This document shows positions 7,873 to 33,501 of a DNA stretch of 33,501 nucleotides, piece after piece; the first letter of the stretch is position 1; each line of letters opens with the position of its first letter. Both the position numbers and the translations under genes were made by a program. The notes beneath the pieces are model-generated. The model saw only the letters and a list, made by a program, of their open reading frames with translations. It was not told where the DNA came from and ran no database searches. Location: positions 1 through 33,501 of the forward strand of contig CAIXRH010000229.1 of the NCBI GenBank assembly GCA_903921785.1, in the 5' to 3' direction. This stretch comes from an uncultured Pseudomonadota bacterium (GTDB lineage Bacteria; Myxococcota_A; UBA796; SXON01).

Positions 7873-8142
7873 GTGGCCCATCACAAGAGCGCGATCAAGC
7901 GCATCCGTACCAGCGCCGAAGCCAACGAGCGGAACCGCTCGCAGCGCACGCGCGTCAAGAATGCCGTGAAGGCAGCTCGCGAGGCGATCGCCGGTGGGGA
8001 CGCCACGGCGGCCGCCGCCACCCTCAACGAGACCGTGTCCACGCTCCAGAAGATGGCGCGTAAGGGCATCCTCCACAAGCGCACGGCGGCCCGCAAGGTC
8101 AGCCGGCTCGCGAAGGCCACCAACGCCCTCACGAAGAAGTAG
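7873..8142 (+). CDS. rpsT: 30S ribosomal protein S20
   Basis: The protein has 89 residues, the normal S20 length. It binds 16S rRNA early in 30S assembly. The N-terminus MAHHKSAIKRIRTSAEANERNRSQ and the Lys/Arg-rich helical body ending KGILHKRTAARKVSRLAK are diagnostic. The start is GTG at 7873, with a GGAG ribosome binding site at 7862-7865. A non-ATG start is known for rpsT in some bacteria and may limit expression (family knowledge). The gene stands alone, with its own candidate promoter upstream and a clear intrinsic terminator 44 bases downstream. Confidence 0.97.
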   Translation: MAHHKSAIKRIRTSAEANERNRSQRTRVKNAVKAAREAIAGGDATAAAATLNETVSTLQKMARKGILHKRTAARKVSRLAKATNALTKK

Positions 8143-8185
8143 CTGCGCATCGGGCGTTCGCGCCCGGTAGCGTCGCTGCCCCACG

Positions 8186-8217
8186 AGCCCGCCTTCTGGC
8201 GGGCTTTTGGTGTTTTT
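8186..8217 (+). terminator. Intrinsic terminator of rpsT
   Basis: An 8-bp perfect stem, AGCCCGCC (8186-8193) and GGCGGGCT (8198-8205), has a TTCT loop and is followed by TTTGGTGTTTTT. This is the best canonical Rho-independent terminator in the window. Confidence 0.9.
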
Positions 8218-8344
8218 CGGCGCAAGGACCGGGTCGGCCCCCGGCTCGCCGACCTGGCGCCACCCGCCCCTCCCCATCCCTCCCCTGCGCCTCGACGCCG
8301 ACCGCTCGCCTCCTACGGTCCGTGCCCGATGAGGATCGTTCTCT

Positions 8345-8519
8345 CGTCGCGGCGACGCGGAGCGAGTCCGTGCATCAAGCAAAAGCGGGCTTCCCGCCGT
8401 CGCGTGAAAACCTTGTCCGTGTTCGCCGACGGTTCAGGGTGAGGTGACGATGCGGGTGACGTCACGGGCGAACCGGCCGAGCGCAGCGAGGGCCGGGCGC
8501 TCGTGGCGGCAGGACCCAG
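8345..8519 (+). repeat. Dispersed repeat, copy A
   Basis: This stretch matches 33194-33383 in the same orientation. From 8347 to 8442 the two copies align without gaps, 76 of 96 bases identical by hand count, including TTCGCCGACGGTTCAGGGTG. After that the alignment needs gaps but again shares GAGCGCAGCGA and GTGGCGGCAGGACCCAG. A small frame, ATG 8329 to TGA 8442 (37 codons), ends in VFADGSG, and the other copy has a matching small frame. Mismatches fall at all three codon positions, so conservation of the DNA rather than of a peptide is likely. The flanking 8220-8344 and 8520-8630 hold nothing I can identify. Confidence 0.75.
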
Positions 8520-8630
8520 CACCACCCCTCACGTTCGCCGAGGCAACAGTGGCGCAACTCGCGACGCCGGGAATCCCGCTCCCCGGCGCAGCGTCCTCGC
8601 CGAGCGAGCGTTGATCACGGCCCGCCCAGC

Positions 8631-9647
8631 TCAGGCCTTGACCACCAGCCCGAGCACGAACGCCTCGATCACCCGACGGTCCCCCGCGCGGGACGAGTTC
8701 ATCCGCCGTGCGGCTGTGGCGAGCGCCTCCAACCACGCGCTCGGCGAGACCGGGCGGCGCTCCACCCGCTCCCGCACCGCGCGCAGCTTGAACGGGGGCA
8801 TCCGCACGCCCGACTCGCGGTCGGGGAGGTGGCGCCGGGCGGCGTCCTGCACCAGGAGCACCTGCCGGAGCTGCCAGGCGATGTTCGCCATCAGCCGATG
8901 CGGCGCTTCCCCCTCTTCGAGCAGCCGATGGAGCTCGGCGAGGGCGCCGTTGGCGTCCGCCGCGACGATGGCGTCGGTGAGCCGCCAGACATCCGCCGCG
9001 GCCGTACTCGCGCAGACCTCCTCGACCACCTCGGGCGTGATCCGCCCGCCGGAGCCCACAAAGCCGCAGCACAGCTCGAGGTTCCCGGCGAGGACATCGA
9101 GATCGTCGCCGCCGTACTCGATGAGCTTCTGGACCCCCGCCGTGTCCACCGTGACGTTCCACGGCTTGGCGCGCGAGCGGGCGAAGGCGGCGGGATCGAT
9201 GCCGTCGGCGTCGAGCTTGCAGACGACGCCGGTCTTCTTCACCTGGTTGGTGATGCGCACGCCGTAGTCGGTGCCGCCGATGGCCGCGGGCATCTTCATC
9301 CCCGAGACGAGGAGCACCGTGGAGTCGATAGGCTTTTGTACGTAGGCGAGCAAGGACTCCATGAGCGCCTTGTTGCCGTCCTGCACCTGCTTGAGCTCCA
9401 CGAGCCGCCGCGACGACATCACCGGCACCTGCCGGCACGCGTCGGCAAAGCCGAGCGCCGCCTCCTCGCCGCACACGAACGAAGCGTGGTTGAACGCGGC
9501 CATCCCGCCAGCGAGCACCACCTCCCGGACCGCCTCCACCGCCTCCTTCACCAGCAGCGACTCTTCCCCCACGCACACGTACACGGGCGCCGGGGTGCCC
9601 AGGGAACGGCGGAGGTCGTCGAGTCCGGCCACGCTGCCCGGTAACAT
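8631..9647 (-). CDS. holA: DNA polymerase III delta subunit HolA
   Basis: The protein has 338 residues, typical for HolA, the clamp-loader subunit that opens the sliding clamp. Conserved features are the N-terminal PVYVCVGEESLLVKEAVEAVRE, the SSRRLVELKQVQ strand after the first helices, STVLLVSGMKM, the middle domain with GGDDLDVLAGNLELCCGF, and the C-terminal collar helices ALAELHRLLEEGEAPHRLMANIAWQLRQVLLV. The start at 9647 is the first in frame and keeps the whole N-terminal domain. It lies 127 bases downstream of the lptE-like gene on the same strand, repeating the lptE-holA order known from enterobacteria. Confidence 0.9.
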   Translation of the reverse strand: MLPGSVAGLDDLRRSLGTPAPVYVCVGEESLLVKEAVEAVREVVLAGGMAAFNHASFVCGEEAALGFADACRQVPVMSSRRLVELKQVQDGNKALMESLLAYVQKPIDSTVLLVSGMKMPAAIGGTDYGVRITNQVKKTGVVCKLDADGIDPAAFARSRAKPWNVTVDTAGVQKLIEYGGDDLDVLAGNLELCCGFVGSGGRITPEVVEEVCASTAAADVWRLTDAIVAADANGALAELHRLLEEGEAPHRLMANIAWQLRQVLLVQDAARRHLPDRESGVRMPPFKLRAVRERVERRPVSPSAWLEALATAARRMNSSRAGDRRVIEAFVLGLVVKA

Positions 9648-32064: not shown

Positions 32065-33162
32065 ATGCGCCCGTATCGCGTCGCCGACTTCACCCGCGTG
32101 CTCGCCGGGCCGTGGGCCACGCAGACCCTCGGCGATCAGGGCTTCGACGTGGTGAAGGTGGAGTCCCTCGAAGGCGACGACACCCGGCGCTTCCGACCCC
32201 TCGTCGGAGGGGAGAGCGTCTACTTCGCATGCACCAACCGGAACAAGCGGTCATTGGCGATCGATCTGAAACATCCGCGTGGGCAGGCGCTCGCCCGGCG
32301 CCTCATCGCCGACGCCGACGTCGTGATGGAGAACTTCCGTCCCGGCGTGATGGCGCGGCTCGGCCTCGACTACGCCCAGGTCGGTCGGCCGGCGCACATC
32401 TGGGTGAGCGTCAGCGCTTTCGGCTCCGCGGTGGATGGCGCGGGGTACGACCTCGTGCTCCAGAGCGTCGGGGGGATCACCACCCTCACCGGCGACCCGC
32501 CCGCCAAGGCCGGGCCGAGCATCGCCGACCTCGCCAGCGCCCAGGTCGCCGTCCAAGGCGTGCTCTTCGGGCTCCTCCACCGCGAACGTACGGGCCAGGG
32601 CCGCCACGTCGACATCAGCATGCTCGACGTGCAGCACAGCCTCCTCGCCTACTACGCCAGCGCCTCCCTCAACGCCGGCGCCAGCCCTCCGCCCCCGAGC
32701 AACGCCCACCCGTCGATCGCCCCGTACAACCTCTACCGCTGCCGCGACGGTTGGCTGGCGATCTGCTGCGCGAACGAAGGGCTTTGGGTGAAGCTCCGCG
32801 ACGCGCTGGGCCTCCCGCACGATCCCCGCTGGGCCACCCTCCCCGACCGCATCCACCACCGCGCCAGCCTGGACGAGGCGATCAACGCCGTGCTCGACGA
32901 AGACGACGTCGCCGTCTGGGAAGCACGCCTGGGCGCCGCAGGCGTGCCGGTCGGCCCCGCGCTCAGCGTCCCGGAGTCGCTCCGGCACCCCCAGGCGCGG
33001 CAGGTGGACGTCGGGCCCTGGCGCCTGCCTCACCCGCCGCTCGAACCCACCCAGCTCCGCCCACCGCCCCGCCTCGGCGAACACACCGACGAGGTGCTCG
33101 CGGAGCTGGGCTGTGCCGCGGAGGAGATCGCGGCGCTGCGGGCGGCGGGGGTGGTCGGCTGA
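32065..33162 (+). CDS. Class III (CaiB/BaiF-type) CoA-transferase
   Basis: The protein has 365 residues, a little shorter than most members (about 390-420). The family moves CoA between carboxylic acids through an aspartyl-CoA thioester. Diagnostic segments are VADFTRVLAGPWATQTLGDQGFDVVKVE, NRNKRSLAIDLKHPRG and DVVMENFRPGVMARLGLDY. The probable catalytic Asp129 is in GYDLVLQSVGG, followed by HVDISMLDVQHSLLAYY. The C-terminal part has APYNLYRCRDGWLAICCANEGLW. The substrate cannot be told from sequence, and alpha-methylacyl-CoA racemase activity is the main alternative within the family. It is divergent from the kinase gene by 53 bases. The stop is followed almost directly by a dispersed repeat. 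Confidence 0.9.
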   Translation: MRPYRVADFTRVLAGPWATQTLGDQGFDVVKVESLEGDDTRRFRPLVGGESVYFACTNRNKRSLAIDLKHPRGQALARRLIADADVVMENFRPGVMARLGLDYAQVGRPAHIWVSVSAFGSAVDGAGYDLVLQSVGGITTLTGDPPAKAGPSIADLASAQVAVQGVLFGLLHRERTGQGRHVDISMLDVQHSLLAYYASASLNAGASPPPPSNAHPSIAPYNLYRCRDGWLAICCANEGLWVKLRDALGLPHDPRWATLPDRIHHRASLDEAINAVLDEDDVAVWEARLGAAGVPVGPALSVPESLRHPQARQVDVGPWRLPHPPLEPTQLRPPPRLGEHTDEVLAELGCAAEEIAALRAAGVVG

Positions 33163-33193
33163 CCCCGTATGGCCGAGAACCGGCTCGACCACG

Positions 33194-33383
33194 GGTCGCC
33201 GCGACGCACCGCGAACCCGTGCAGCGAGCCCACGCGGGCTTCACGACGTCGCGGCCAGACCTTCGCCTTGTTCGCCGACGGTTCAGGGTGAGATGACGGG
33301 CCCGAAAGTGGGCCAGGGGTGTGACGTCGCCAGCGGCGGGCGGAGCGCAGCGACCGCTCGCCGATGGTGGCGGCAGGACCCAG
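33194..33383 (+). repeat. Dispersed repeat, copy B
   Basis: This is the same orientation as copy A at 8345-8519. The shared blocks are the gap-free 96 bases from 33196 ending in GACGGTTCAGGGTGA, then GGAGCGCAGCGA and GTGGCGGCAGGACCCAG, with about 15 extra bases in the middle of this copy. A small frame, ATG 33169 to TGA 33291 (40 codons), ends LFADGSG and corresponds to the one in copy A. Like copy A it lies just 3' of a plus-strand gene. The remaining 33384-33501 shows nothing I can assign. Confidence 0.75.
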
Positions 33384-33501
33384 GGCTGATACCGAACGAC
33401 CATGATCCAGCTCGCCCGGCCAAACGCGGCGCGGGGGGCCGTGGGGTTCCGCGACACGCCCTGTCGGCGACGGGGCTCCCCGGCATGGTCGGCGTTGGCG
33501 C

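Follow-up and report, generated by a model that had tools for sequence, protein, structure and literature searches.

Two similar stretches of DNA lie about 25 kb apart in a contig of 33,501 nucleotides, here called the window, which is the entire contig C229 of an uncultured bacterial genome (G000; 7.48 Mb in 362 contigs). They raise the question of whether such a repeat is a structured RNA, a non-autonomous mobile element or a genomic packaging site rather than a peptide-coding sequence, the readings that an earlier note on this DNA had weighed. Our comparisons of the sequence suggest that the two stretches probably belong to a genus-specific family of BOX-like non-autonomous mobile elements, each with a conserved structured RNA of approximately 250 nt, and they support the view that the structured RNA and mobile element readings hold together.

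The similarity between the two copies, A and B, is real. Their best ungapped 96-base block (8346-8441 against 33195-33290) is identical at 76 of 96 positions, matching the 79% previously counted by hand, and BLAST aligned them at 72% identity across 190 bases. Both copies are on the plus strand. The earlier placement of the two copies just 3' of a plus-strand gene holds for copy B, which directly follows the TGA stop (33160-33162) of gene 32065-33162, and is loose for copy A, which lies 171 bases past the stop of gene 7873-8142, because a terminator-like hairpin followed by a T-run (8180-8216) intervenes, 3' of that gene and 5' of the copy. Lying behind this terminator-like sequence, copy A is not clearly a 3' UTR. 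The upstream gene appears, from its translated protein, to encode ribosomal protein bS20. The related genomes G012 and G021 lack the element between the bS20 gene and the gene facing it, and in G021 their two stops are only six bases apart, so copy A either entered the G000 lineage by insertion or disappeared from the other lineages. The features of the two copies are as follows.

8311-8313, plus strand: left flank TCC of copy A, presumably an altered 3-bp target duplication (TCA expected)
8314-8630, plus strand: copy A, full element, with its 5' end TACGG at 8314, placed by alignment to copies in which both terminal repeats are present
8314-8333, plus strand: terminal inverted repeat at the 5' end of copy A, with 80% identity to the 31-copy consensus
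8329-8442, plus strand: mini-ORF of copy A (MRIVLSSRRR...FADGSG), judged non-coding
8369-8440, plus strand: first core segment of copy A (CCGTGCATCAAGC ... TTCGCCGACGGTTCAGGG), from the copy alignment
8449-8522, plus strand: central hairpin of copy A together with its invariant flanks, GGGTGACG and GGCAGGACCC; the best match in this genome of R1, a covariance model of the central hairpin
8631-8633, plus strand: right flank TCA of copy A, the stop codon of minus-strand gene 8631-9647 and the right copy of the 3-bp duplication
33163-33390 (right edge approximate), plus strand: copy B, directly after a TGA stop
33300-33315, plus strand: one unit of an optional 16-base module (GCCCGAAAGTGGGCCA) in copy B

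The 5' end of copy B has decayed and its distal (3') part is unrecognisable, while its core is retained. Both mini-ORFs end in FADGSG with RASRRR ahead of it, as had been observed. Only 7 of the 31 copies aligned from this genome have a start codon at that position from which the frame stays open as far as the conserved stop, and variability was flat over the three codon positions (0.138, 0.172 and 0.132), in agreement with the even spread of substitutions reported for A and B. These two results give no support to a peptide, against which the earlier note had argued, and the element, in the manner of a MITE, has no protein of its own.

The repeat had been described as present in two copies; the repeat stands and the count does not, with about 50 copies in the genome. 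A genome-wide search found 47 matching places with copy A as the query and 48 with copy B, some of them halves of one copy, and these numbers indicate that the similarity of A to B exceeds chance. Stretches with copies (38 retrieved initially, others added later) yielded the 31 unsplit copies of the alignment. In these, a common core runs from CCGTGCAGCAAGC to GGCGGCAGGACCCAGCGC and the distal part finishes in GGCGCCGCGTCCTCGCCGGGCGAGCGG. The apparent splits of other copies are due to a tandem 16-base module (AGCCCGAAAGTGGGCC), of which a copy may carry anything from 0 to about 8 units at one or the other of two positions, and the whole element is about 250-340 bp long. In seven of the 31 copies the 5' repeat cannot be recognised (each has an identity below 0.5, and the average is 0.29), and their two core segments nevertheless stand at 0.86 and 0.87, compared to 0.91 and 0.86 in the 15 copies with 5' repeat identity of at least 0.7. 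The core is therefore not simply decaying along with the ends. Some copies apparently arose without ends, as at three loci (L015, L031 and L039) the core comes immediately after a copy of the distal part. Copies here are mostly dispersed singly; integron attC sites, by comparison, stand in a cassette array beside an integron integrase. At two contig ends of another genome (L195 and L199, on C70 and C111 of G014), element copies stand in tandem about 180 bp apart, and are perhaps the ends of longer arrays.

Many copies in G000 start with TACGGTCTGACCCTGATGA and finish with CAGGGTCAAACCGTA, forming an inverted repeat. Both ends were well kept (no more than two mismatches at the 5' end and one at the 3' end) in 14 of 43 copies examined, so that the terminal inverted repeats expected of a MITE are found in many copies, not in all. 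The search for target-site duplications, proposed previously as a mark of mobility, revealed 3-bp duplications, with identical TGA or TCA triplets on both sides of nine of the 14 well-kept copies; the other five had no identical flanks. A pattern search showed that a similar end, TACGGCCTGAGCCTGAAGAAGATCG, occurs at eight contig ends in this genome, where it leads into an open frame that begins MPSILRVSPHLTPEEVVA.

G000 contigs C15, C83, C90, C146, C203, C243, C280 and C281 (e.g. L107, L108, L111 and L112): insertion-sequence left ends

This sequence is probably an insertion sequence in multiple copies that interrupted the assembly, and its end follows TGA or TCA in all four contig ends that were read. 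The element end and the insertion-sequence left end are identical at 22 of 25 positions, indicating that, as in a MITE, the ends are shared with a presumably autonomous element in that genome. Of the insertion sequence, the left ends were recovered, at contig ends and in G000 only, and the transposase was not; the insertion sequence was not found in the ten other genomes of the genus. Locus L109 carries a 115-bp version with both ends, no core and a TCA duplication. In G014 and G020, copies inspected by eye finish, for example, with ACAGGCTCAGGTCGTA or CAATCGGTA before a T-A triplet. The insertion-sequence-like terminal inverted repeats and the 3-bp duplications back the reading of a non-autonomous mobile element.

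A central-hairpin pattern matched 10 of the 11 genomes of the genus and one of 52 others of the order, and its reversed form matched none of these 63. The single match outside the genus (G036) is probably chance, and model R1 gives it no support. R1 itself matched all 11 genomes of the genus, none of 60 other genomes of the class and none of 273 other genomes of the phylum under the search filters used; in the phylum sample, 9 of 282 genomes matched, all nine from this genus. Ten of the matched genomes had supplied the sequences for R1, and only G020, whose copies were found with R1, is independent. The resulting copy numbers are lower bounds, as the searches scored at most 63 candidates per genome for the class and at most 16, with stricter filters, for the phylum: at least 56 in G012, 50 in G000, 42 in G014, 27 each in G013 and G020, 20 in G017, 16 in G015, 6 in G016, 3 in G021, and one each in G018 and G019. 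Stem sequences are species-specific, and the flanking motifs GGGTGACG and GGCAGGACCC are common across species. On the genomes searched in this way, the family is genus-specific.

The suggestion of a packaging site found no support, as copies are dispersed through cellular genomes and neither the phage nor the plasmid collection contained a match to the element; five pattern matches in viral contigs lacked its other motifs and look like chance. A known RNA family was also rejected. Using Rfam release 15 (4227 families), there were no matches in the window at the gathering score, none at E <= 1 at L009, L017, L021 and L043, and nothing on the element at E <= 1 at ten further loci. A weak match to isrG at L206 (705-903, minus strand; 26.8 bits against a gathering score of 100) lies off the element and is probably chance. 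A literature search found no description of this repeat family.

To describe the position of the element relative to genes, we placed 129 copies, a subset of all copies, in 11 genomes using our own codon-usage gene caller. None was within a called gene. Fifty-four copies lay between convergent genes and only 6 between divergent genes, while convergent and divergent gaps made up 16.5% and 32.6%, respectively, of the intergenic bases in the same stretches; the scarcity of divergent copies can be explained by harm to promoters. A further 19 had no called gene on one side. The 50 copies between tandem genes were in the sense orientation in 38 cases and antisense in 12 (P = 0.0003), a bias that calls for something strand-specific, such as an RNA. 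Ten copies in G000 have a TGA stop codon as their left flank. Special targeting of stop codons is not needed for this, since stop codons account for 162 of the 437 TGA/TCA sites available.

Many copies with compensatory changes had been named in advance as the sign of a conserved RNA, and this is what the comparison of copies revealed. Thirteen copies from G013, G015 and G016 share one long hairpin with a consensus energy of -116.7 kcal/mol, in which 19 of 70 predicted pairs show compensated double changes, and 19 copies from G014 give a consensus of -66.7 kcal/mol with such changes in 15 of 51 predicted pairs. The outer stem differs among copies within one genome and mostly stays paired. The central stem was compared across 51 copies (49 distinct) from ten species with shuffled controls, which are optimistic because the sequences are related copies: 96.0% of cells were paired, compared to 77.8% in shuffles and 36-47% when the stem was slid, and 129 cells had double changes, compared to 38.1 in shuffles. 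Double changes occurred in 9 of 11 pairs against 7.4 in shuffles, a small margin (17 of 500 shuffles reach 9), and four GGGU/ACCC pairs are uninformative because they never vary. In G020, which was used for neither the pattern nor the model and whose stem was written from one of its copies, 18 copies (17 distinct) had 20 double-change cells against 4.8, and 94.8% against 89.5% of cells paired. Where pairs had been chosen without G-U, departures were G-U in 33 cells and A-C in 6 (A1 and A2 together), or 24 against 5 when counted by pairs (two-sided binomial P = 0.0005, an optimistic value given that the copies are related), which points to an RNA on the given strand. Single-sequence folds of copies A and B were only moderately unusual (z of -2.2 and -2.5). 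The compensatory changes and the excess of G-U over A-C back the structured RNA proposed for A and B.

The main rival without an RNA function is that the element is purely selfish DNA, an imperfect palindrome in which template switching copies the arms and so gives compensation without selection. Palindromes are common in such elements, a DNA transposon would account for the inverted ends and the 3-bp duplications, and the core-less L109, which has both ends and its duplication, indicates that the core is unneeded for movement. However, arm-copying does not predict an excess of G-U over A-C departures, and unpaired motifs are common to species whose stems differ; these two observations disfavour it. 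The sense bias and the retention of the core in copies without a 5' repeat also speak against selfish DNA, which we consider unlikely.

The element could instead be a dispersed regulatory RNA or terminator owned by the host, with its mobility in the past and selection keeping copies at gene ends, an explanation that we regard as distinctly improbable. Its placement at gene ends is consistent with this, and several copies adjoin the same gene in different species. In addition, G019 and G021 share one orthologous copy (L206/L207), which has the same gene downstream and unrelated DNA upstream, and in which the stem changes are compensated. However, copies at shared sites come from different species-specific subfamilies, and at two shared sites (L209/L176 and L215/L172) they lie in opposite orientation beside the same genes. 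Matching ends and duplications are still present in many copies, copy numbers range from at least 1 to at least 56 among genomes of the genus, and G012 and G021 have no element at the bS20 site, all of which speaks against this explanation.

A MITE would be expected to have target-site duplications of one fixed length. Identical TGA or TCA triplets occur at nine of the 14 well-kept copies, and other copies are bordered by direct repeats of 14-40 bp. These consist of host sequence at L018 (38 of 40 positions identical), L032 (26 of 27), L037 (17 of 17) and L116 (14 of 14), and at L018 and L116 they seem, on our reading, to duplicate overlapping gene ends, keeping both genes whole. Such repeats hint at a second way of insertion. 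A scan of 124 copies found long host-sequence repeats at only a handful. In the direct-repeat scan, L217 and L218 were dropped as edge artefacts; because flanks contain element pieces, its mismatched-pair control scored high (99th percentile 43), and we therefore relied on long host-sequence repeats only. It is conceivable, although very improbable, that host selection maintains the element at gene ends and that it spreads by two routes, one driven by the insertion sequence with 3-bp duplications, the other possibly RNA-templated with duplications of 14-40 bp and no terminal repeats. If true, this would make the family a bacterial equivalent of SINEs that has become a set of 3'-end elements.

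Reverse-transcriptase domains are present in 5 of the 11 genus genomes, and a search for PF00078 in G000, listed as 96% complete, gave no match. None of seven reverse-transcriptase loci examined has the element beside it; one loose pattern match among them (L227) reads as coding and lacks the other element motifs. Four loci (L223, L224, L225 and L228, in G014, G012 and G017) hold reverse-transcriptase genes; three of these resemble the retron type, and the fourth belongs to a frame of 1182 residues. A retron RNA is not supported, given the missing PF00078 match in G000 and the absence of the element at the seven loci. A SINE-like element, its RNA copied back to DNA without terminal repeats and with long target duplications of variable length, would draw on the reverse-transcriptase domains in the genus and on the host-sequence repeats of 40, 27 and 14 bp at L018, L032 and L116, which have no 5' repeat, and is nonetheless very improbable, given the lack of a match to such a domain in this genome, the coding character of the L227 match and the rarity of long repeats.

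Retron RNA or msDNA-like repeats occur in myxobacteria, and are similarly dispersed structured repeats, here in a probable myxobacterial lineage; the present family differs in having neither an Rfam match nor a reverse-transcriptase domain in the genome, nor any copy beside the reverse-transcriptase loci examined. Judged by one protein, the nearest relatives of this genome are metagenome-assembled Deltaproteobacteria or Proteobacteria, and one labelled Myxococcales ranks lower. ERIC, RUP and other bacterial MITEs are intergenic palindromic elements with inverted ends that are moved in trans. Our element resembles them in being intergenic and palindromic with inverted ends, and differs in its 3-bp TGA/TCA duplications and in a core that outlasts the ends. 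BOX elements of Streptococcus pneumoniae and relatives are small, non-autonomous, modular repeats (boxA-boxB(n)-boxC) with boxB in variable number, insertion-sequence-like ends, a predicted stem-loop when transcribed, and versions in several congeneric species (PMC3049150). The likeness is one of plan only, and no relationship in sequence would be expected: a small non-autonomous repeat with a variable internal module (boxB there, the 16-base unit here), insertion-sequence-like ends, a predicted stem-loop and related versions within one genus. Unlike BOX, the present element is GC-rich, has a longer hairpin, favours gene 3' ends and has stems that differ by species and are strongly compensated over ten species. 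REP and BIME sequences are hairpin-forming repeats at gene 3' ends that are reported to attenuate transcription (PMC3049150). They share hairpins and position with our element, which, at about 250-340 bp with insertion-sequence-like ends, is unlike the short REP units.

Under the preferred reading of BOX-like mobile elements with a structured RNA, an insertion-sequence transposase would move element copies in trans, and insertions would survive where no gene is harmed, often at a TGA stop codon restored by the duplication. A copy would then be transcribed as the 3' tail of the upstream gene, or from both sides between convergent genes, and would fold into a long GC-rich hairpin. This hairpin might limit read-through or exonuclease and so act at the 3' ends of mRNAs, the least certain step, which we propose tentatively and by analogy, as possible rather than probable. 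Action at 3' ends, on read-through or exonuclease, has been reported or discussed for BIME/REP and BOX.

The family adds a genus-wide RNA that is backed by covariation and lacks a match in Rfam, and its hosts are represented here mainly, or even exclusively, by metagenome assemblies. Every species carries a version of its own, in one to more than 50 copies located largely at gene ends. The genus therefore provides a natural experiment for asking if hairpin repeats of this dispersed kind are junk, parts of mRNA 3' ends, or both, a question that applies likewise to BOX, ERIC and REP sequences.
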